A stretch of 64,000 nucleotides of DNA from contig NZ_CP163444.1 in assembly GCF_041053105.1 (NCBI RefSeq), positions 6,666,501-6,730,500 on the forward strand. Direction: 5' to 3'. The translations under genes were made by a program, and so were the position numbers. Positions within the stretch are counted from its first letter, which is position 1. The number at the start of each line of letters is the position of its first letter. The notes below the pieces were generated by a model. It was not told where the DNA came from, ran no database searches, and saw only the letters and a program-made list of their open reading frames with translations. Of this stretch, positions 49,945 to 60,805 are shown piece by piece. Source of the stretch: Streptomyces sp. R44. Lineage in GTDB: Bacteria > Actinomycetota > Actinomycetes > Streptomycetales > Streptomycetaceae.

Positions 49945-52284
49945 GTGGACCAGCTCACCGCCGAAGACCCGACACACGTGGGCCCGTACCGTCTCATCGC
50001 CCGACTCGGGGCGGGCGGTATGGGCCTCGTCTACCTCGGTCGCGACGACGTCGGCCGTACGGTCGCCGTCAAGGTCGTCCAGTCCGAGTACGCCTCCCAG
50101 CCGGAATTCCGCAGACGCTTCGCCCGCGAGGTCGCGGCCGCCCGAAGAGTGGGCGGCAGCTGGACCGCGGACGTCCTCGACGCGGACACCGACACCGGCG
50201 TCGCGGTGCCCTGGGTCGCCACCCAGTACATCGCCGGGCCCGACCTGACCACCGTCGTCGCCCGGGACTTCGGCCCGCTGCCCGAGCACTCCGTCCGCGT
50301 CCTCGCCAACCGCCTCGCCCTCGCGCTGCGGGTCGTGCACGACGCCGGCCTGATCCACCGCGACCTCAAACCGTCCAACGTCCTGGTCACGGTGGACGGG
50401 CCCCGCGTCATCGACTTCGGCATCGCCCGCGCCATGGACAGCCTGGCCGGGGACAGCCTGCACACCCGCACCGGCATGCTGATCGGCTCGCCCGGCTTCA
50501 TGTCCCCGGAGCAGGTCCGCGGCCTCGAACTCACCCCCGCCAGCGATGTGTTCTGCCTGGGTGCCGTCCTCGTGTACGCCGCCACCGGCCGCCTCCTCTT
50601 CGGCGCCACCGACACCGGTCTGAACGCCCACCTCTTCCGGGTCGCCGAGGAGGAACCCGACCTCACGGGCGTACCCGCATCACTGCTCGGCCTCGTCCGC
50701 GCCTGCCTGGAGAAGGACCCGGCCGCGCGGCCCGCGCCCGAGCGGATCGCCGCCCTCACCGAGGGGGACGCCGGCGGGGTCTGGCTGCCGGGCGAGGTCC
50801 TGGTCCAACTGGGGCGACACGCGGCGCAGTTGCTGGACTACGTACCGGCGGCGCGCGCGGAGGCGCCGGCTGATCGGCCCGTGGTGCGGCCCTCCGCTCA
50901 GCCCGTGACCGAGACGGCTCCCCGCGACTCGGCACCCAGGCCCGCACCGGCATCCGCCTACACCCCGACGGCTCCGGCCCACGAGGTCCCCGCACCCTCG
51001 CCCGGCCGCGGACGGGGCCTGGCGGTGATCGTGCTCGCTCAACTGGCGGTGCTGCTCGGGGCGGCGCAGGACCCCTTCGGCTTCGACCGGGAGAGCCCGG
51101 AGCTGTACTCCTTCGCCGTCCCCTTCGCGGCCTTCCTGCTGCTCGGCGGGCACCTCGCCGACCGGCTGGGCGGCAGACGGACGCTGTTCGTCGGTCTGAC
51201 GGGACTCGTGGCTGCCTGTGTGCTGGGAGGCTCGGCCACCGCGATCGCCCCCACCCCCGCCGCGCTGATCACGGCCCGCGTCCTCCAGGGCGGGTTCGGC
51301 GCCCTGGTGACGGCGGCGGCGCTGACCCTGGTGGCCACCGCCTTCCCCGAACCGGGTGCACGGGCCAGGGCCTTCGGCGTCTACGCCACGGCCGGCATCG
51401 GCGCGCCCGTCGTCGCGCTCCAGCTCGCGGGGCTGGCCTGGGGCCCGGTCCTGGGCATCGCCGCCCTCCTCGCCCTGATCGCCCTGGCCGGGACGCGCGC
51501 CCTGCCGCACGACCGCCCGGACCGCACCGGCACCCGCTTCGACCTGCCCGGAGTCCTGCTCGGCACCTTCGCGATCGCCCTGCTCCTGTACGGCTCCACC
51601 AAGGCGACGCACGGCTGGGGCACCCCCCTGGCCATGAGCCTGCTCACCGGAGGCATGGCCCTGCTCGGGGCCTTCCTGGCGCAGCTGGGCAGCGGGACGA
51701 ACCCACTGCTGCCCCCGTACGTGTTCAAGGACCGCAACAGGCTCGGCGGCCTCCTCGCCATGCTCCTCGCCGGCGCCGGCATCCTCGCCCTGCTGCCGCC
51801 CCTGGCGTCGATCCTGACGTGGGACCTCGGGTACTCCCCGTCCCAGGCCGGTCTCGCCCTGCTGCCCATGGTCGCCGCGCTCGCCGTCGCCGCCGTCCAG
51901 GTCGCCCCGCGCCTGCTGCGCCGGGGCGTCGCGCCCCGCGTCCTCGTCGTGGCGGGCCTGGTGCTCACCCCGCTCGGCGTGACCCTGACCATCGTCGGGA
52001 TCGAGAACGGCGCCGGATACGCGGTTCTGCTCCCGGCCACGGTCCTCGCGGGTCTCGGGGTCGGTCTGGCCTTCATGCCGCTCTTCGCCACGGTGGTCGC
52101 CGCCGGCCTCGGCCGGCACACGGGAGCGGCGGCCGCCGCGGTCGTCACGGCCCAGACGCTGGGCAAGGACTTCGGCGCGGCAGCCGTCGTCGGCTACGGC
52201 GGGCCGCCCTGGTGGGCGATCGTCGTCCTGCTGCTCGCGGGGCTCGTCGCGGGCCTGATGGTGACCACCAGGGCGGCGGCCTAG
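49945..52284 (+). CDS. Ser/Thr protein kinase fused to an MFS transporter
   Basis: 779 aa in one frame. Residues 1-275: Hanks-type kinase with P-loop LGAGGMGLVY (21-30), VAVK Lys43, catalytic HRDLKPSN (138-145, Asp140), DFG (157-159) and SPEQ; all key residues intact. Residues about 290-352: Pro/Ala linker. From about 355: a major facilitator domain with GRGLAVIVLAQLAVLLGAA, motif A GGHLADRLGGRRT, then about 12-14 hydrophobic helices (ARVLQGGFGALVTAAALTLVATAFP like DHA2 exporters). Streptomycete kinases usually carry PASTA or other sensor domains; a transporter is unusual. GTG start, weak ribosome site. Confidence 0.88.
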   Translation: MDQLTAEDPTHVGPYRLIARLGAGGMGLVYLGRDDVGRTVAVKVVQSEYASQPEFRRRFAREVAAARRVGGSWTADVLDADTDTGVAVPWVATQYIAGPDLTTVVARDFGPLPEHSVRVLANRLALALRVVHDAGLIHRDLKPSNVLVTVDGPRVIDFGIARAMDSLAGDSLHTRTGMLIGSPGFMSPEQVRGLELTPASDVFCLGAVLVYAATGRLLFGATDTGLNAHLFRVAEEEPDLTGVPASLLGLVRACLEKDPAARPAPERIAALTEGDAGGVWLPGEVLVQLGRHAAQLLDYVPAARAEAPADRPVVRPSAQPVTETAPRDSAPRPAPASAYTPTAPAHEVPAPSPGRGRGLAVIVLAQLAVLLGAAQDPFGFDRESPELYSFAVPFAAFLLLGGHLADRLGGRRTLFVGLTGLVAACVLGGSATAIAPTPAALITARVLQGGFGALVTAAALTLVATAFPEPGARARAFGVYATAGIGAPVVALQLAGLAWGPVLGIAALLALIALAGTRALPHDRPDRTGTRFDLPGVLLGTFAIALLLYGSTKATHGWGTPLAMSLLTGGMALLGAFLAQLGSGTNPLLPPYVFKDRNRLGGLLAMLLAGAGILALLPPLASILTWDLGYSPSQAGLALLPMVAALAVAAVQVAPRLLRRGVAPRVLVVAGLVLTPLGVTLTIVGIENGAGYAVLLPATVLAGLGVGLAFMPLFATVVAAGLGRHTGAAAAAVVTAQTLGKDFGAAAVVGYGGPPWWAIVVLLLAGLVAGLMVTTRAAA

Positions 52285-52523
52285 ACGCCCAGCAGGCCCC
52301 GGAGATGGGCGCAGGCGGCCGCCTCCGTGTCGTGCGTGGCGACCGGCTCGTACGCGCCCCGCTCGTACACCCCGGTCTCCCAGCCGGGCCCGTCCGGCCT
52401 CGTCCGCAGATAGACGAAGTCGGGCGGGGTGGGCGCCGGTTCGTGGACGCCCTCGATCCAGTAGTACGCGGCGGGCACCCCGGCCTCCCGGAGTGCCCGT
52501 TCCAGCGCGCGGCGGTCGGTCAC
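52281..52523 (-). CDS. Small protein coupled to the TNT toxin gene (candidate immunity factor)
   Basis: 80 aa; the GTG at 52523 overlaps the TNT gene stop (GTGA), so translation is coupled. MTDRRALERALREAGVPAAYYW is followed by a strand-rich stretch (DFVYLRTRPDGPGWETGVYERGAYEPVATHDTEAAACAHL). Acidic and aromatic, no signal peptide, cytoplasmic. Position directly after a NAD-glycohydrolase-type toxin makes it the natural candidate for self-protection, though the toxin has a signal peptide. It is not similar to the mycobacterial IFT that I remember. Its end overlaps the kinase-MFS stop by 4 bases, convergent. Confidence 0.65.
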   Translation of the reverse strand: MTDRRALERALREAGVPAAYYWIEGVHEPAPTPPDFVYLRTRPDGPGWETGVYERGAYEPVATHDTEAAACAHLRGLLGV

Positions 52524-53203
52524 GCGGGGACGCGCACCAGGTAGCCGTTGTCGAGCAGCCACTTCACGTTGAGGCGCTGGCCCTCGCCCGGGTTCAGGAA
52601 CGCCGGGTCCAGCTTGATCTGGCGGCCACCGCCCGGCTGTTCGAACCAGGGCGCGATGGAGCCCTCCCAGACGACGAAGCTCTTCGTCACCTCGTACAGG
52701 TGGTAGTCGCAGGGGAAGGCCGTGTCACGGGTGTTGAGGTTCTGCGGGGGCAGCGCCCGCTTGGCGTAGGCGTCGCCGGCGGGGGCCAGGTAGCCGCCGT
52801 ACTCCGAGCCGAAGCGGTCCAGGCGCTCGCCCTGCTCCAGGAGCTCCGGCGCCTTGTCGACGGTGCCGTTGACCTCGGCGAAGCCGTCGTTCGGCGGGTA
52901 CTTCCAGCTGCCGGTGTCGGCCGGGCCCTCCCAGTACTTCTTGAGGAAGTCGGCGGAGGAGAGCTGCCCGGTCCGGTGGTAGCGGTTGAGGAGCGGGCCG
53001 ACCGGGTCCTGCCACTTCTTCGGCAGGAACTTCGGGCCGAGCCGCTTGTCGCCCTCGAACTCCCCGGTGCAGGGGGCCGGGGGAGCGGCGGCGGGCTTCT
53101 CGGCCGGGGCGGCCTGCGCCGCGGGGGCCGCGGCGAGGGCGGCGGTGACGCCCATGGCGGCGAGGACGGCACGGATCCTGAGGACGGTACGGCTGCGCTC
53201 CAC
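52520..53203 (-). CDS. Secreted TNT-domain protein (NAD+ glycohydrolase type)
   Basis: 227 aa from GTG 53203 with GGGAG upstream. Signal peptide with cleavage near AAQAAPA (about residue 31). Mature part: CTGEFEGDKRLGPKFLPKKWQDP, then WKYPPNDGFAEVNGT, EQGERLDRFGSEYGGYLAP, a tail of the TNT fold with VVWEGSIAPWFEQPGGGRQI and LLDNGYLVRV. This agrees with the tuberculosis necrotizing toxin domain, which cleaves NAD+; Streptomyces and fungi have secreted single-domain versions. Two Cys (start and FPCDYHLYEV) could form a disulfide. Enzymatic residues were not verified. Confidence 0.85.
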   Translation of the reverse strand: MERSRTVLRIRAVLAAMGVTAALAAAPAAQAAPAEKPAAAPPAPCTGEFEGDKRLGPKFLPKKWQDPVGPLLNRYHRTGQLSSADFLKKYWEGPADTGSWKYPPNDGFAEVNGTVDKAPELLEQGERLDRFGSEYGGYLAPAGDAYAKRALPPQNLNTRDTAFPCDYHLYEVTKSFVVWEGSIAPWFEQPGGGRQIKLDPAFLNPGEGQRLNVKWLLDNGYLVRVPA

Positions 53204-54046: not shown

Positions 54047-55210
54047 ATGGATGTCGACCGCCTGCTTCCCACCCCCGAGGCAGCGGACCTCATCGCCCTC
54101 ACCCGGGAGATCGCCGACAAGGAGCTCTCTCCGCGGGTGGACGAGCACGAGGCCGCCGAGACCTATCCCGAAGGGCTCTTCGCGACCCTCGGCGAGGCCG
54201 GGCTCCTCGGCCTTCCGTACCCGGAGGAGTTCGGCGGCGGAGGCCAGCCCTACGAGGTCTACCTCCAGGTCCTGGAGGAGCTCGCCGCGCGCTGGGCCGC
54301 CGTCGCCGTCGCCACCAGCGTCCACACGCTCGCCTGCCACCCCCTCCACACCTTCGGCACCCCGGAGCAGAAGGAGCGCCGGCTGCCCGCGATGCTGGAG
54401 GGCCGGACCATCGGCGGCTACAGCCTCTCCGAGCCGCAGGCCGGTTCCGACGCCGCCGCCCTCAGCTGCAAGGCCGAGCGCCAGGACGACGGCAGCGGTT
54501 ACCGCGTCACCGGCACGAAGGCCTGGATCACGCACGGCGGCAAGGCCGGCTTCTACGCCCTCTTCGCGCGCACCGCCCCCGGCAGCCACGGCATCTCCTG
54601 CTTCCTCGCCCCCGGCGCCACCGAAGGCCTGAGCTTCGGCGCGCCGGAGCGCAAGATGGGCCTCCAGGCCGTGCCGACGACGGCCGCGTACTGGGACGGC
54701 GCCCTCATCGAGGAGGACCGGCGCATCGGGGACGAGGGCCAGGGCCTCCAGATCGCCTTCAGCGCGCTCGACAGCGGCCGCCTCGGCATCGCCGCCTGCG
54801 CCACCGGGCTCGCCCAGGCCGCGCTCGACGCCGCCGTGGCGTACGCCAACGAGCGCACCACCTTCGGCCGCCGGATCGTGGACCACCAGGGCCTCGGCTT
54901 CCTGCTCGCCGACATGGCCGCCGCCGTCGACGCGGCCCGTGCCACGTACCTGGACGCGGCGCGGCGCCGCGACCTCGGCCGCCCGTTCAGCCGCCAGGCC
55001 AGCGCGGCCAAGCTCATCGCCACGGACACGGCGATGAAGGTGACCACGGACGCCGTGCAGGTCTTCGGCGGCTACGGCTACACCCGGGACTTCCCGGTCG
55101 AGCGGTACATGCGCGAGGCGAAGATCATGCAGATCTTCGAGGGCACGAACCAGATCCAGCGGCTCGTCATCAGCCGTGGCCTGGCGACGGCCGAGAAGGG
55201 CGCGCGGTAG
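54047..55210 (+). CDS. Acyl-CoA dehydrogenase
   Basis: 387-aa flavoprotein of normal length. Signature 1-like GGYSLSEPQAGSDAAAL near 125-140, TKAWITHGGKAGFY, and at the C-terminus DAVQVFGGYGYTRDFPVERYMREAKIMQIFEGTNQIQRLVISR, with the catalytic Glu in the IFEGTNQ motif. Oxidises an acyl-CoA and passes electrons to ETF; the etfA end at 63815 is not linked. Streptomycete AcdH relatives act on branched short-chain acyl-CoAs, which I cannot confirm. Its last 41 bases overlap the opposite subtilisin gene. Confidence 0.92.
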   Translation: MDVDRLLPTPEAADLIALTREIADKELSPRVDEHEAAETYPEGLFATLGEAGLLGLPYPEEFGGGGQPYEVYLQVLEELAARWAAVAVATSVHTLACHPLHTFGTPEQKERRLPAMLEGRTIGGYSLSEPQAGSDAAALSCKAERQDDGSGYRVTGTKAWITHGGKAGFYALFARTAPGSHGISCFLAPGATEGLSFGAPERKMGLQAVPTTAAYWDGALIEEDRRIGDEGQGLQIAFSALDSGRLGIAACATGLAQAALDAAVAYANERTTFGRRIVDHQGLGFLLADMAAAVDAARATYLDAARRRDLGRPFSRQASAAKLIATDTAMKVTTDAVQVFGGYGYTRDFPVERYMREAKIMQIFEGTNQIQRLVISRGLATAEKGAR

Positions 55211-56072
55211 CCGTCCGCAGCGTCGTGTACGCGGCCCAGGCGTCCAGGAGCGGCGGCATCGCCGACCGCCGGCGTCCGGGCCCGTGCGTCACCGCGTACC
55301 GTACGGCCGCCGGGGTGGCGTCCGGGAACGCCGAGCGGAGCAGGGCGACCGCCCCGGTGACGAAGGGCGCGGCGGCGCTCGTACCGCTCAGGAGGACGGG
55401 GCGGCCGTCGAGGCCCACACCGGGGACGCGGTCGCCGGGCGCGCCGACTCCGTTGCGGCCGATCGAGATGCCCCGATTGGAGTGGGGCAGGGGGCGTCCG
55501 GCGTGGTCGTACGCGACGACCGGGATGACCCAGGGGTGGTCGGTGAGCGGGGAGGAGCCCGTCCGGCCCTGGTTCCCGGCGGCCACCACGACGATCACGC
55601 CCCGGTCGGCGGCGTGACCGAGCGCCGCGTCCAGCGCGCGGTCGCGGACGCCGGAGGGCGCGGGCTGGGCCAGACTCAGGTTCAGCACGTGGGCGCCCGC
55701 GTCGACGGCCTCCGTGATCGCCTCCGCCAACTCCGCGACGCGTACGCCGGCCAGACAGGTCGCGGGGCCGCCGTCGGCCGGATGATCCGCGAAGAGGGGC
55801 CTGGACAGCAGCGTGCAGTGCGGGCACACGCCCCGGTCCCCGGCGAGGAGCGCGGCGACGGCGGTGCCGTGGGCGCAGCACACGTCCGGGTGGGCGCAGG
55901 TTCCCGTGCCGGCGGCCGCCCCCGCGGCCGGACGCAGTTCGCGGACCGGACGGCCCGCGAAGGCGGGGTGGTTCGGGGCCACACGGCCGTCGACGACGCA
56001 GACCACGACCGAGGACCGGCCGGAGGTACGCGCCATCAGCGGCGTGAGCCCGACCAGGTCCAGGGGGTCCAT
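55170..56072 (-). CDS. Cytoplasmic subtilisin-like protease of a PatA/PatG-like cluster
   Basis: 300 aa from the ATG at 56072 (AGAGAGG 5 bases upstream). S8 catalytic triad: Asp28 (VVCVVDGRVAPNHP), His68 (CCAHGTAVAALLAG), oxyanion Asn167 (AAGNQG) and Ser232 (LSGTSAAAPFVTG). No signal peptide and no propeptide, unlike secreted subtilisins, and several Cys (CAHPDVCC, CPHC). This fits the cyanobactin-type maturation proteases that cut ribosomal precursor peptides in the cytoplasm. Upstream in the same direction are a Cys-rich 64-residue gene and a PatG-C-like gene, which supports a peptide-processing role; inference. Confidence 0.85.
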   Translation of the reverse strand: MDPLDLVGLTPLMARTSGRSSVVVCVVDGRVAPNHPAFAGRPVRELRPAAGAAAGTGTCAHPDVCCAHGTAVAALLAGDRGVCPHCTLLSRPLFADHPADGGPATCLAGVRVAELAEAITEAVDAGAHVLNLSLAQPAPSGVRDRALDAALGHAADRGVIVVVAAGNQGRTGSSPLTDHPWVIPVVAYDHAGRPLPHSNRGISIGRNGVGAPGDRVPGVGLDGRPVLLSGTSAAAPFVTGAVALLRSAFPDATPAAVRYAVTHGPGRRRSAMPPLLDAWAAYTTLRTATARPSRPSPGHG

Positions 56073-56225
56073 GCGTACCTCTCTCCGCCCCTGCCGGGGG
56101 GCAGGCAGGCTCATCGCGACTCCGGCGGGGGGAAGGAGCCGGTCGCCCGGCGTTGCCAGGGCCGGGCGAGCGTTCTCGTGGTCACTCTCGTGCGCGGGTC
56201 CGAAGCCGGGGACGGCCGTCGGACG

Positions 56226-56420
56226 TCACCACCACGGATCCTCCGAGCAGAATGCCTTCAGGCACTTCCTCACGCACGTGCGGTAGTCATGGCTTCCCTT
56301 GCAGTTGTTGCGGCAGACCGGGCCCAACTCCAGCTCGCAGAGCGCGTCCTGAGGGCGGATCAGATCGCCGGTCCGTGTGTCGCGCGTCTGTGGTTCGACG
56401 GCGAATCCGGGGATGCTCAT
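56226..56420 (-). CDS. 64-residue Cys-rich protein (candidate precursor peptide)
   Basis: ATG at 56420 with AGGAGG 10 bases upstream inside a long purine-rich run, predicting high expression. Residues 1-27 are leader-like and polar (MSIPGFAVEP, TGDLIRPQDAL); residues 28-64 hold six Cys (28, 36, 40, 49, 53, 58) as two C-x3-C pairs plus two singles, ending DPWW. No signal peptide. It lies between the PatG-C-like gene and the cytoplasmic subtilisin. It could be the substrate of that protease, or a twin-CX3C structural protein. No family recognised. Confidence 0.7.
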   Translation of the reverse strand: MSIPGFAVEPQTRDTRTGDLIRPQDALCELELGPVCRNNCKGSHDYRTCVRKCLKAFCSEDPWW

Positions 56421-56429
56421 GTCCGTTCG

Positions 56430-56459
56430 CCTCCTTCTCTCCTCTTTCTCTTCCTTCTC
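56430..56459 (-). promoter_or_regulatory. 30-nt purine-only mRNA tract before the Cys-rich gene
   Basis: The 67-bp spacer before the Cys-rich ORF carries an uninterrupted 30-base run of C/T on the plus strand (A/G in the mRNA), with several overlapping GGAG/GAGG sites, ending in the AGGAGG before the ATG. Very unusual in this G+C-rich window; perhaps a standby ribosome site. Confidence 0.6.
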
Positions 56460-56487
56460 ACTGCCGCCCGGGCCGGCGTTGCCCGGG

Positions 56488-57471
56488 TCAGCGGGCGAAG
56501 TACTCCTGGAACGGTGTCACCGGGAAGGGGAAGTACCCGGCGAGACCCACGCGGACGAAGTACTTCTCGACCACGTTGGTCTGGAGGTCGGTGTACGAGA
56601 ACACGACCGTGACGACGGCCTGCGACCGGGTGCTGAGCCGGGAGGGACCGGCTTCCACCGAGGTGAGGACGGAGCCCTCCGCGCGCTTCTCGTTGGTCTT
56701 CTGGTACATCTCCTGGCACCGCACCGTCAGGTAGTTGAGGACCCGGCCGACCGGGTCGGTGCCGGCGTTGTCGCTGAGCTGGAGCAGCCGGTCGAGCAGC
56801 GATCCGACGACCTTCTCGAACTCCTTGCGGGAGGTGCCCTGGGGGCGGTCGATCGCGCGGATGAGTTCCTTGCGGTCGAAGCCCCAGGTCTTCACCACGC
56901 TGACGACGGGAACGGAGAGTCCCTGGCAGGCACTCGGGGGCGCGACCGGGCCGAGCGCGCCGACCACCACGGCGAGGTCGCGCCCGTAGTTCACCGGACG
57001 GAGCGCGTCCACCAGCTCGTCGAGACCGGTGGGGTCCGTGGCCTCCAGGATGTAGGTGTCGACGCCCTGGACGGACAGGACGAAGCACATCTGCCGGGCG
57101 AGATAGCGGTTCTCCGGGGCGGAGAGCACGCGGTACATCGCGTCGGCGTCGGTGCTGTCGGTATGCCCGCCGGCCCCCGCCACCTGGAAGAACTCGTGCT
57201 GGATCGAGACGTTGGGGAAGACGGCGCGGACGCGGCCGAGCACGTAGACGTAGCCGCCCTCGTCGGCCTCCCCTCCGTCGCCGGGGGCGGCCGCCGCGGT
57301 GCAGCCGCAGGACGACGGGACGACGGTCGCATCGTCGGCCTGCGCGGGGCCGGGATCGCGCACGGGCCCGGGATCGTCCGCCGCGAGCACGGGGTCGGGC
57401 GGAGTGGGCGGGGCGCCGGTCTCCGTCGAGAGGCCCGCGGCGGGGGCGGTGTCGATGATCTCGGGGTTCAT
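56488..57471 (-). CDS. PatG C-terminal-domain-like protein
   Basis: 327 aa, GAGGAG 7 bases before the ATG. After a Pro/Ala-rich N-terminal stretch with SSCGC (about 53-57), the body matches what I remember of the region C-terminal to the protease in cyanobactin PatG proteins: YVYVLGRVRAVFPNVSIQHEFFQ, NRYLARQMCFVLSVQGVDTYILEATDP, DLAVVVGALGPVAPPSACQGLSVPVVSVVKTWGF and LLQLSDNAGTDPVGRVLNYLTVR. In this cluster the protease is a separate gene (55170-56072), so a PatG-like protein appears split in two, with the Cys-rich gene between. Activity of the region is unknown in general. Confidence 0.75.
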   Translation of the reverse strand: MNPEIIDTAPAAGLSTETGAPPTPPDPVLAADDPGPVRDPGPAQADDATVVPSSCGCTAAAAPGDGGEADEGGYVYVLGRVRAVFPNVSIQHEFFQVAGAGGHTDSTDADAMYRVLSAPENRYLARQMCFVLSVQGVDTYILEATDPTGLDELVDALRPVNYGRDLAVVVGALGPVAPPSACQGLSVPVVSVVKTWGFDRKELIRAIDRPQGTSRKEFEKVVGSLLDRLLQLSDNAGTDPVGRVLNYLTVRCQEMYQKTNEKRAEGSVLTSVEAGPSRLSTRSQAVVTVVFSYTDLQTNVVEKYFVRVGLAGYFPFPVTPFQEYFAR

Positions 57472-57581
57472 CAGTCACTCCTCACACGCACTCTGGCGGA
57501 CCGTCAGGAGCGGGGGCGCTCAGGGGGACCGTGCATCGGGCAGGCGCTGCACACGGTGCCCGGAGGCACCGGCACGGAGGC

Positions 57582-57848
57582 TCAGCGGTCCGGCCCGCCA
57601 CCGATCGTCATCCACCGGTTCAGCGCCTCGGCCCGACGGCCGCAGCCGCCGCAGGGGCGGATGCCCACCGCCGAGGTCACCCGGGCGACGGCGTCGCCCA
57701 GCCCGATCTCCGTACCCTCACCGCCGGGACGCGCGAAGCCGGGGATGCGGACCCGGTGCCGGGGGCCGTCGTGGCGACGGCTGTCACGGGAGTCGTGTGC
57801 CGTCCCCTTCCGGGCCTTCCCCCGACTGCTCGTTGCGCGGTCAACCAT
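57582..57848 (-). CDS. Small CxxC protein upstream of the PatG-like gene
   Basis: 88 aa from the ATG at 57848 (in-frame GTG 9 bases earlier). The first 45 residues are Arg/Asp/Ser-rich; then GLGDAVARVTSAVGIRPCGGCGRRAEALNRWM, a pattern (GxGD...T...GI.PC.GC..R...LN) I have seen in small actinobacterial proteins of unknown function, often annotated hypothetical. The CGGC may bind metal. It precedes the PatG-like gene by 110 bp, same strand, so may belong to the same cluster. No strong ribosome site. Confidence 0.6.
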   Translation of the reverse strand: MVDRATSSRGKARKGTAHDSRDSRRHDGPRHRVRIPGFARPGGEGTEIGLGDAVARVTSAVGIRPCGGCGRRAEALNRWMTIGGGPDR

Positions 57849-57961: not shown

Positions 57962-58537
57962 CTACTTCGCGAGGGTGGCGACGCCGGCCTGTGCGAACTT
58001 CTCGTCCAGGTCGCCCGAGGGGGCACCCGCGACACCGATGCCCGCGATCGGGGCGCCCTTGGCGGTGACGGGGGCGCCGCCGGCGAGGAAGAGGGTGCCG
58101 GGGATGTCGCGCAGGGTCGGGGCGTTGGTGAGGCGCTTGGCGAGCTCGGAGGTCGGGGCGTTCCAGGAGACGGCGGTGTACGCCTTCTTCTGGGCCGACT
58201 CGTAGGACTGCGGGCCGGCGCCGTCGCCGCGCAGGGTCACGAGGGTGTTGCCGTTGCGGTCGACGACCGCCACGGAGACCCGCTGGTTCTCCTTCTCGGC
58301 GGCGTCCAGGGTCGCCTGCGCGGCCTTCGTGGCGGCCTCGATCGTCAGGTGCGTGGAGCGGGTCGTGTTCTTGTTCTTGGCGTCCGCCTCGGCGGTGGCG
58401 GCGGCCGGCGCGGCCGCCGTGTCCTCGCCGGTGGCGCTCGCGGAGTAGGCCCCGAAGCCGCCGAGGGCGAGGGCGGCGACGATCGCGCCACCGGTCACGA
58501 CACGGGTGCGGGAGGAGGCCTTCTTCACGTGCTTCAT
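57962..58537 (-). CDS. Secreted HbpS/GlcG-like haem-binding family protein
   Basis: 191 aa. Signal peptide: KKASSRTR, then VVTGGAIVAALALGGFGAYSASA, cleavage about residue 36. Mature part is the GlcG/HbpS (DUF336) fold: LTIEAATKAAQATLDAAEKENQRVSVAVVDRNGNTLVTLRGDGAGPQSYESAQKKAYTAVSW, ending DLDEKFAQAGVATLAK. HbpS of Streptomyces binds haem outside the cell and partners with SenS/SenR; that kinase pair is not here, so function is likely related but not identical. GGAG lies 9 bases before the ATG. Confidence 0.87.
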   Translation of the reverse strand: MKHVKKASSRTRVVTGGAIVAALALGGFGAYSASATGEDTAAAPAAATAEADAKNKNTTRSTHLTIEAATKAAQATLDAAEKENQRVSVAVVDRNGNTLVTLRGDGAGPQSYESAQKKAYTAVSWNAPTSELAKRLTNAPTLRDIPGTLFLAGGAPVTAKGAPIAGIGVAGAPSGDLDEKFAQAGVATLAK

Positions 58538-58680
58538 GGGATCTGCTCCAGTGAACTCGGGGAACCGCGGGGGCCGTCGGGATGCCGCGGCCCGGTCTGC
58601 TCCCCATCCTGGTGCCGTACCCTGCGGCCGTCCGTCGTCGTCCCGGCTGCACCCGGATCCCGCAACGGTGGACCCCGGGG

Positions 58681-59638: not shown

Positions 59639-59696
59639 GGCAGATATCGACAGCAGGTCTTGGACGCTATAGGCACTGGTCGTGCACGGTGGGGAC

Positions 59697-60293
59697 ATGC
59701 CTCACTTCGCCGAGGGAATCGCCCGCTTCCAGCGGGAGGTCTTCCCTGCCAAGGCCGGCCTCTTCGCCCGCCTGGCCACCGCCCACCGGCCCGGCACGCT
59801 GTTCATCGGCTGCTCGGACGCCCGCGTCGTACCCGAACTGATCACCCAGACCGATCCCGGCGAACTCTTCGTCATCCGCACCGCCGGCAACCTCGTCCCC
59901 GCCCACACCCCGGGCACCGACGGCGTCACCGCCGGTGTCGAGTACGCCGTCGGCGTCCTGGGCGTGCGGGACATCGTCGTCTGCGGGCACTCCGCCTGCG
60001 GCGCGATGACCGCGCTCGCCGAGGGCCACGACCTGAGCGCCGCGCCCGCCGTCGCCGCCTGGCTGCGGCACGCCGACGCCTCCCTCGCCCGCGCCGCCGT
60101 CGGCGGGACGGTCGACGTGGCCGCCCTGGTCCGCGAGAACGTCGCCGCACAGCTCGCGAACCTGGCCACCCACCCGTCGGTGGCCCGCGCCCTCGCCACC
60201 GGCGAAGTACGGCTGCACGGCTGGGTCTTCGACATCGCCGACGGCACCGTCGAGGAGCTCCCCGCCACGGCGCGCCCGCCGCTCGCCGCCTGA
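59697..60293 (+). CDS. cynT: Beta-type carbonic anhydrase of the cyanate operon
   Basis: 198 aa from the ATG at 59697, with GTGGGG upstream. Zinc site and catalytic residues: CSDARV near 40 (Cys and Asp-Arg dyad) and GHSACGAM near 100 (His and Cys). [13 protein letters not shown] and [20 protein letters not shown] are typical. Converts bicarbonate/CO2; beside cyanase it prevents loss of the bicarbonate that cyanase needs as co-substrate. Cyanase follows 41 bases later. Confidence 0.92.
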
Positions 60294-60334
60294 CCCCCCT
60301 CCGCAAGAACCCTTCAGGAAAGGACGTACCTCTC

Positions 60335-60805
60335 ATGGTGCACGCCCAGTTCGACCCCACCGCCCGCCGCGCCCTCGCGATCGCCGCCGTCGACGCCAAG
60401 ATCCGCGAGGACCTGAGCTGGCAGCGGATCGCGGACGCCGCCGGCCTCTCCGTCGCCTTCACCACCGCCGCCGTCCTCGGCCAGCACGCCCTGCCGGAGG
60501 AGTCCGCGAAGGCCGTCGCCGAGCTCCTCGGCCTGGACGAGGACGCGGTGCGCCTGCTGCAGACGATCCCCACCCGCGGCTCGCTCGACGGCGCCGTCCC
60601 CACCGACCCGACCATCTACCGCTTCTACGAGATGCTCCAGGTCTACGGCACCACGCTGAAGGAGCTCGTCCACGAGCAGTTCGGCGACGGCATCATCTCC
60701 GCGATCAACTTCAAGCTGGACGTGAAGAAGGTCGCCGACCCGGAGGGCGGCGAGCGTGCCGTGATCACCCTGGACGGCAAGTACCTGCCGACGAAGCCGT
60801 TCTGA
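60335..60805 (+). CDS. cynS: Cyanase (cyanate hydratase)
   Basis: 156 aa, normal size. HTH-like N-terminal half ([40 protein letters not shown]) and the conserved C-terminal catalytic segment [38 protein letters not shown], which carries the active-site Arg, Glu and Ser of the family. It decomposes cyanate with bicarbonate to ammonia and CO2. AGGAAAGG lies before the ATG. Its end is 7 bp from the convergent TetR gene, so no room for a normal terminator. Confidence 0.94.

Follow-up and report, generated by a model that had tools for sequence, protein, structure and literature searches.

Four adjacent genes of Streptomyces sp. R44

The window analysed here is a stretch of 64,000 nucleotides from Streptomyces sp. 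R44, whose genome is a single contig of 8.9 Mb. It holds a set of four intact open reading frames (ORFs), all on the minus strand between positions 55170 and 57848, that encode in this order a small CxxC protein, a protein with PatG_D and PatG_C domains, a 64-residue protein with six Cys, and a PatA-like subtilisin, with gaps of 110, 67 and 153 bases between successive genes (Table 1). The clustering of these genes, which we call the module, had been noticed in a reading made from the sequence alone (the sequence-only reading), and our survey supports a wider interpretation in which the same gene set and a peptide tag recur in many bacteria and archaea.

Table 1. Coordinates of the module and of its proposed parts in the window
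Feature	Positions	Strand	Remarks
CxxC protein, 88 aa (ATG 57848)	57582..57848	-	RIPGF (PGF residues 36-38), GLGD, GIRPCGGCGRR
PatG-like protein, 327 aa, PatG_D + PatG_C	56488..57471	-	Stand-alone counterpart of the PatA/PatG domain of unknown function
N-terminal tail of the PatG-like protein, VVPSSCGC, residues 50-57	57301..57324	-	Resembles the second motif of the precursor, followed by Cys
Six-Cys protein, 64 aa, proposed precursor peptide	56226..56420	-	Cys 28, 36, 40, 49, 53, 58
Proposed leader, residues 1-24, MSIPGFAVEPQTRDTRTGDLIRPQ	56349..56420	-	Tag and second motif; putative cleavage
Proposed core, 40 residues, CX7CX3CX8CX3CX4C	56229..56348	-	Putative product
PatA-like subtilisin, 300 aa, preferred start	55170..56072	-	Asp28, His68, Ser232; extra conserved Cys59, Cys66, Cys83, Cys86

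An alternative start of the subtilisin, ATG 56114, gives 314 aa (55170-56114). We prefer the shorter one (ATG 56072) because the equivalent Met is where the homologue at locus L017 starts, because a purine-rich site precedes it and because the catalytic Ser is then residue 232, the number that the sequence-only reading had assigned to it. The strong ribosome site which that reading ascribed to the Cys-rich gene is AAGGAGG, nine bases 5' of the ATG of the 64-mer. The ratio of nonsynonymous to synonymous substitution rates ranges from 0.08 to 0.86 across six listed pairs of 64-mer relatives, and this range, together with the recurrence of the arrangement across many other genomes, argues that it is beyond chance.

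The PatG-C-like identity proposed for the 327-aa protein is borne out by matches to PF18047 (PatG_D, expect value (E) 1e-22) and PF18065 (PatG_C, E 1.7e-26), both above the Pfam cut-offs. A PDB search with this single sequence found nothing, and one with a profile of 27 PatG-like proteins gave 4uvq at E 1.2e-8 (profile positions 52-298), the structure of the PatG domain of unknown function. The subtilisin matches Peptidase_S8 in Pfam (E 1.2e-25), with no propeptide domain listed beside it, as had been expected. By eye, the N-terminus MDPLDLVGLTPLMARTSGR shows no long hydrophobic stretch. Of the solved structures, the subtilisin comes closest to the PatA protease 4h6w (E 2.5e-27), and it matches the PatG protease domain 4h6x less well (E 2.3e-12). 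In this sense, the comparison with a split PatG made in the sequence-only reading holds in that the parts are separate genes, but a split PatA is the better comparison because the protease is nearer to PatA. As the PatG_D/PatG_C and PatA-like S8 matches fall in different ORFs, the window encodes a PatA-like protein in two halves, each with its own gene. In public annotation the name 'cyanobactin maturation protease PatG family protein' is given to many of the PatG-like proteins, though the protease is a different gene. The protease stays below the NCBIfam cut-offs of the type VII secretion mycosin model, which scores highest (TIGR03921, 119.2 bits against 278.75), the PatA model (TIGR03895, 95.1 against 421.05) and the QhpE maturation protease model (NF049966, 26.2 against 165).

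Conserved residues of the protease were counted in 75 of the 84 module sequences, after dropping 9 with stop symbols. The catalytic Asp, His and Ser are conserved in 74, 74 and 75 of them, and Cys59, Cys66, Cys83 and Cys86, near the catalytic His, in 63, 65, 67 and 70. His179 is present in all 75 and in none of 12 PatA sequences, which also lack Cys59, Cys66 and Cys83 without exception. In a tree of S8 proteases the 75 sequences form a clade with support 0.845; the root was placed with the 12 PatA and 8 other cyanobacterial subtilisins, so that a sister relationship to PatA lies outside the scope of the tree.

Cysteines are also a mark of the PatG-like proteins, whose N-terminal tail carries a CxC or CxxC in 71 of the 87 readable cases (2 of 89 could not be read; shuffled mean 7.5, maximum 16). 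In 39 of the 87 tails a P-Q/A/S/M site stands at most 8 residues before that Cys motif (shuffled mean 0.9, maximum 5). Among 12 PatA chains, a Cys pair lies directly before the domain in three (L122-L124) and further up the linker in four (L113, L114, L116 and L117). A viral origin was considered and rejected, as the viral contigs searched held no PatG-like relative.

Neither the CxxC protein nor the 64-mer matches a Pfam or NCBIfam family. An alignment of 16 CxxC proteins shows fifteen invariant residues, and 62 of 64 carry [ILVM]PGF, the core of the tag described below, followed by GLGD and GI-x-P-C-x-x-C-x-x-R. The family is large (at least 7994 of 8000 scored candidates at E <= 0.001), and among the 120 matches listed none has a Pfam domain and every named one is a 'hypothetical protein'. 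Two leads on this protein were abandoned: the LPGF-GLGD-CxxC element is embedded in 0 of 12 PatA chains, and a weak match of the CxxC tail to phrog_32048 (E 5.7e-6), a hypothetical protein of two Nonlabens phages, led nowhere.

Distribution of the gene set in bacteria and archaea

In the genus of the window, 11 of 150 genomes have a PatG-like match, with an S8 match within about 2 kb in 10 of these loci and a CxxC match in 7; such a match is rare in a draw from the whole phylum, with 2 of 296 genomes, both of the same genus. A scan of named genomes retained the best 80 of 108 loci, reduced to 79 by dropping L090, a duplicate of L022. An S8 gene was found at 74 of the 79 and a CxxC gene at 64, always on the same strand as the PatG-like gene, with a median gap between S8 and PatG-like genes of 378 bases. 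The order S8-CxxC-PatG prevails (50 loci). The order of the window, with the 64-mer gene between those of the PatG-like protein and the protease, occurs in 8, its close relatives (L027-L034); all eight hold the four genes, in agreement with the co-occurrence of 64-mer and protease relatives that a neighbourhood survey was expected to reveal.

The bacterial loci belong to 11 phyla (Actinomycetota, Pseudomonadota, Acidobacteriota, Nitrospirota, Cyanobacteriota, Bacteroidota, Chloroflexota, Verrucomicrobiota, Planctomycetota, Hydrogenedentota and Zixibacteria) and the archaeal ones to methanogenic, methane-oxidising and ammonia-oxidising archaea; placements were taken from record titles, many of them of metagenome-assembled genomes, and some may be wrong. 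A plasmid of Sinorhizobium mexicanum, typed as conjugative, also carries S8, CxxC, PatG-like and tagged Cys peptide genes (L133, 4673-8280); its CxxC and peptide genes do not appear in the gene table listed for it, a table known to have gaps. Some copies look decayed, with PatG-like pieces in short separate frames (G750:C1:739205-739700 and G911:C9:7221-7507). Weak PatG-like matches within frames of 669-725 residues (G873:C13:18090-18596, G882:C113:31434-31925 and G844:C118:30357-30818) could be fused PatA-type proteins.

Constant partners were sought in the 40 largest clusters of ORFs of at least 90 aa from 88 loci. By eye, the widespread ones consist of the PatG-like and S8 proteins and of antisense or chance frames; only 4 loci contribute to a cluster that looks radical SAM-like and was considered as a further partner. 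No cyclodehydratase was recognised by eye in these clusters.

These results bear on whether the locus is a classical cyanobactin pathway whose remaining genes lie elsewhere or were lost. PatG domains next to a PatA-like protease would suit it, and the accessible part of one source lists cyanobactin-type genes among the predicted clusters of an actinomycete, a Saccharopolyspora (PMC10145562). We nevertheless regard it as highly improbable: the protease falls far below the PatA model cut-off, and protease and domain are separate in the window and at all 74 loci that have both, none of which joins them in one open frame. A Pfam scan of 12 neighbouring window proteins found regulators, an acyl-CoA dehydrogenase, a carbonic anhydrase, a cyanate hydratase and others and no known peptide-modifying enzyme; the claim that no cyclodehydratase or radical SAM gene is at hand thus stands for these proteins. 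Besides, the 64-mer has neither an AYDG-type nor a G(L/V)E(A/P)S site, which the available part of PMC10885120 gives as the recognition sites of PatE, the ribosomal precursor cut in the patellamide pathway by PatA.

Tagged Cys-rich peptides and their association with the module

The 64-mer starts with MSIPGFAVE, and small ORFs with a like start are present at most loci. The motif IPGFTAEASLY, at first a presumption, was then tested on the loci. The consensus of the leader is [IML]-P-G-F-T-A-E-A-S-L-Y, with a further Tyr ten residues past the Glu in 63 of 102 peptides. These 102 tagged small ORFs were found by a fixed pattern on the module strand at 60 of 89 loci, against 3 in 3 loci on the opposite strand, two of which look real by eye; the filter removed CxxC proteins, as well as rows in which no hydrophobic residue precedes the P, lowering the counts from 122 to 102 and from 8 to 3. 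Locus L026, where no S8 was found, was left out of the precursor, protease and tail counts. None of nine precursors reached an NCBIfam cut-off and none of five a Pfam one.

A second motif, [VI][VIL]P[QA], follows in 41 of the 102 (shuffled mean 0.6, maximum 4), and it marks a sharp change in composition: among 82 peptides with a looser form of it, Cys accounts for 14 of the 2779 residues that end with the motif and for 560 of the 4331 (12.9%) beyond it. The tails differ widely in length, Cys spacing and sequence, and a locus may hold up to 6 tagged genes. The window 64-mer is a divergent member, with IPGFAVE at residues 3-9, LIRPQ at 20-24, and then DALC and its six Cys. In ten aligned sequences of its group Q24 is invariant and P23 nearly so; the other V-x-P-Q of the 64-mer (V-E-P-Q, 8-11) is not conserved. 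With a profile of this group, 44 proteins are retrieved at E up to 10, all but one of which (43) score below 1e-7. The core peptides of the group contain two CX3C pairs, an arrangement that would be compatible with a helical hairpin stapled by disulfides.

Other variants were seen. Two loci of the genus of the window (L024, 6346-6696; L025, 6833-7567) show the leader variant LPRLTAE, and their PatG-like proteins share only 32-33% identity with that of the window; no CxxC gene was found at these two loci, which perhaps represent a second leader type. In L138 (2357-2710) and L081 (3478-3903) a Cys-rich part, a long Gly run and a second Cys-rich part follow each other like two units joined by a linker.

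A different explanation would be that the small proteins are metal-binding or redox proteins of a metallothionein-like kind, which the module trims for activation or turnover, with no secreted natural product. The Cys content of the tails and the conserved Cys of all three helpers, namely the protease, the tail of the PatG-like protein and the CxxC protein, would agree with it, as would the lack, by eye, of any exporter or modifying enzyme among the 40 largest ORF clusters other than the radical SAM-like one. The wide variation of the tails speaks against such a function, and so does the number of tagged genes per locus, seemingly more than one metal site needs. On balance, we consider this explanation rather unlikely.

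Tag and PatG-like gene also go together across whole genomes. In the family of a Nitrosospira (G460, the genome of L035), the PatG-like gene is present in 16 of 125 genomes, and the tag, searched as a DNA pattern, in 14 of these 16 against 1 of the 109 others (reversed control 0; Fisher p 1.4e-15). The family of a Nitrospira (G468, the genome of L045) has it in 11 of 147 genomes, with the tag in 8 of 11 carriers against 1 of 136 non-carriers (reversed control 1 genome; p 3e-10); all 21 tags of the 8 tag-bearing carriers lie at most 5.4 kb from the PatG-like gene, and one of the three carriers without a tag, G844, has only its weak match inside a long frame. These p-values ignore shared descent, as the genomes are related to each other. 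A strict tag pattern was found in 19 of 49 module genomes, at 39 places, with none for the reversed control. Tag matches in genomes lacking the PatG-like gene were inspected and discarded where they could be judged: in Streptomyces, no small tagged Cys-rich ORF is listed at three of four places and the fourth, at a contig end, is not judgeable, and in G748 the match is an ORF of 38 residues that has a single Cys and lies opposite a long ORF.

In the Nitrosospira family, by contrast with that of the Nitrospira, some tagged genes are remote from the module. Two of them in G749 share a contig with the PatG-like gene at distances of about 158 and 246 kb, and six remote tagged stretches (L136-L141) show by eye no PatG-like or CxxC gene in the frames examined; therefore one module could serve several peptides in trans. 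In one of these stretches (L141, 59-2158 and 2524-2784), a tagged Cys peptide comes right after a 699-aa subtilisin-like frame that by eye is unlike the module protease.

Protease-inhibitor pairs offer another comparison, in which the small proteins would inhibit or regulate the adjacent subtilisin and the tag would be the inhibitory part. A subtilisin without a propeptide domain, with small genes close by, would fit this picture, and the presence of the same elements in the CxxC protein and in many PatG-like tails is what competing ligands would show. Yet the tagged genes of G749 are distant, and a constant tag with variable Cys tails is the usual pattern of substrates rather than of inhibitors, so we hold such a role to be improbable.

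Proposed maturation route and its setting

We consider it probable, from the sequence features above, that the four genes form a minimal maturation module of the type that makes ribosomally synthesised and post-translationally modified peptides (RiPPs), a split relative of cyanobactin PatA whose subtilisin would remove a leader after P-Q/A. The precursor idea of the sequence-only reading gains support from the shared leader, the variable Cys-rich tail and the genome-wide co-occurrence; a conserved leader and a variable core linked to maturation genes, a general RiPP feature, are found here, the window tag being a divergent form. The 64-mer would be the precursor, with its N-terminal IPGF tag recognised by the module, and the PatA-like subtilisin would cut after the second motif (R-P-Q24, before D25) to release a 40-residue core with six Cys. 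Such a cut fits the leader-removal role known for PatA, according to the accessible part of PMC10885120. The PatG-like protein, whose domain is joined to the protease in a single chain in cyanobactin PatA, may bring leader and protease into position without being a catalyst itself. Since the CxxC protein has the same PGF as the tag, it probably docks where the leader does, and it may either take part in thiol or metal chemistry on the Cys core or gate the protease. The extra Cys and His of the protease and the substrate-like elements within the module are candidates for a docking or gating role, or for a thiol/metal relay.

Several points weigh against this interpretation. The literature found reports no cleavage, product or binding for the module, and nuclear magnetic resonance showed no binding of the patellamide precursor PatE to the isolated PatG domain (PMC4259220, which also reports an aggregation artefact relevant to isothermal titration calorimetry), so that a simple leader-binding role of the PatG-like fold is disfavoured. 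PatE, however, is not known to carry the PGFTAEASLY-type tag. The mycosin model scores better for the protease than the PatA model. The CxxC gene is not universal, being missing at 15 of 79 loci, and no match was found elsewhere in those 15 genomes, a weak negative as the search had no positive control. The tag of the window is divergent (GFAVE) and LIRPQ fits only the looser second motif. By pattern, a tagged ORF is missing at 29 of 89 loci; by eye, 16 of the 29 have a divergent similar peptide and in 13 no similar peptide was seen. The strict tag pattern is missing in 30 of 49 module genomes, and in the genus of the window a looser one occurs in 3 of 11 carriers of the PatG-like gene and 4 of 139 other genomes (reversed control 2; p 0.009). 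Lastly, the 40 largest ORF clusters revealed no exporter.

The likeness of the module to PatA and PatG of the patellamide pathway lies in the S8 protease, with PatA as the nearest solved structure, and in the same C-terminal domain. Here, in contrast, protease and domain are separate genes, a CxxC protein is added, the protease carries Cys59, Cys66 and Cys83, and precursor, leader and Cys-rich core are unlike PatE. RiPP families of the Nif11/NHLP type have one leader and many variable cores. The module resembles them in its constant leader, variable core and several precursors, dispersed in some genomes; it differs by eye in the leader and, among the 40 largest ORF clusters, has no lanthionine, azoline or radical SAM enzyme as a constant partner. 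The domain in 4uvq is homologous to the PatG-like protein, which stands alone here and often has a tail like the precursor site. From what is accessible of PMC4259220, the zinc ligands of 4uvq are poorly conserved even among cyanobactins, and the role of the domain common to PatA and PatG was left open when the structure was solved.

In the open-access literature we found no paper that prints the tag PGFTAE or describes the module, most subscription papers lying outside this coverage. The accessible part of PMC8776678 describes a cyanobactin peptidase in a Roseomonas; this gene and those of the Saccharopolyspora may be module members. Two further sources (PMC4603692, PMC10783134) mention PatG, in the parts available, in other settings only.

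Other genes of the window were noted in passing. A carbonic anhydrase followed by a cyanate hydratase, like a cyanate-use pair, and an HbpS-like haem-binding protein that adjoins the module were noted at 59682-60805 (plus strand) and 57962-58543 (minus strand). In a 779-aa protein (49945-52284, plus strand), a Ser/Thr protein kinase domain (E 1.5e-33) and a Major Facilitator transporter domain (E 1.4e-20) share one chain, to our knowledge an unusual pairing. At 52281-53152 (minus strand), a TNT-domain protein (PF14021, E 2.1e-32) precedes a 93-aa protein that matches no Pfam family and has an immunity-protein-like position.

A broader proposal is conceivable, if somewhat doubtful: a RiPP-like class across bacteria and archaea in which one tag (PGFTAEASLY) would mark many unrelated Cys-rich peptides, scattered in some genomes, for one shared module whose own proteins carry pieces of the substrate (PGF in the CxxC protein, the P-Q/Cys site in the PatG-like protein). 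Because the precursors tried miss the NCBIfam and Pfam cut-offs and the CxxC proteins listed have no Pfam domain, a large set of Cys-rich peptides may escape present annotation. Here a PatG-type domain is encoded on its own, alongside genes for a protease, for a CxxC partner of small size and for candidate substrates that are simple, which makes the role of this domain testable with four small proteins. If the proposal is true, leader/protease assembly would be the task of the PatG 'domain of unknown function', which could then be studied outside the cyanobactins.

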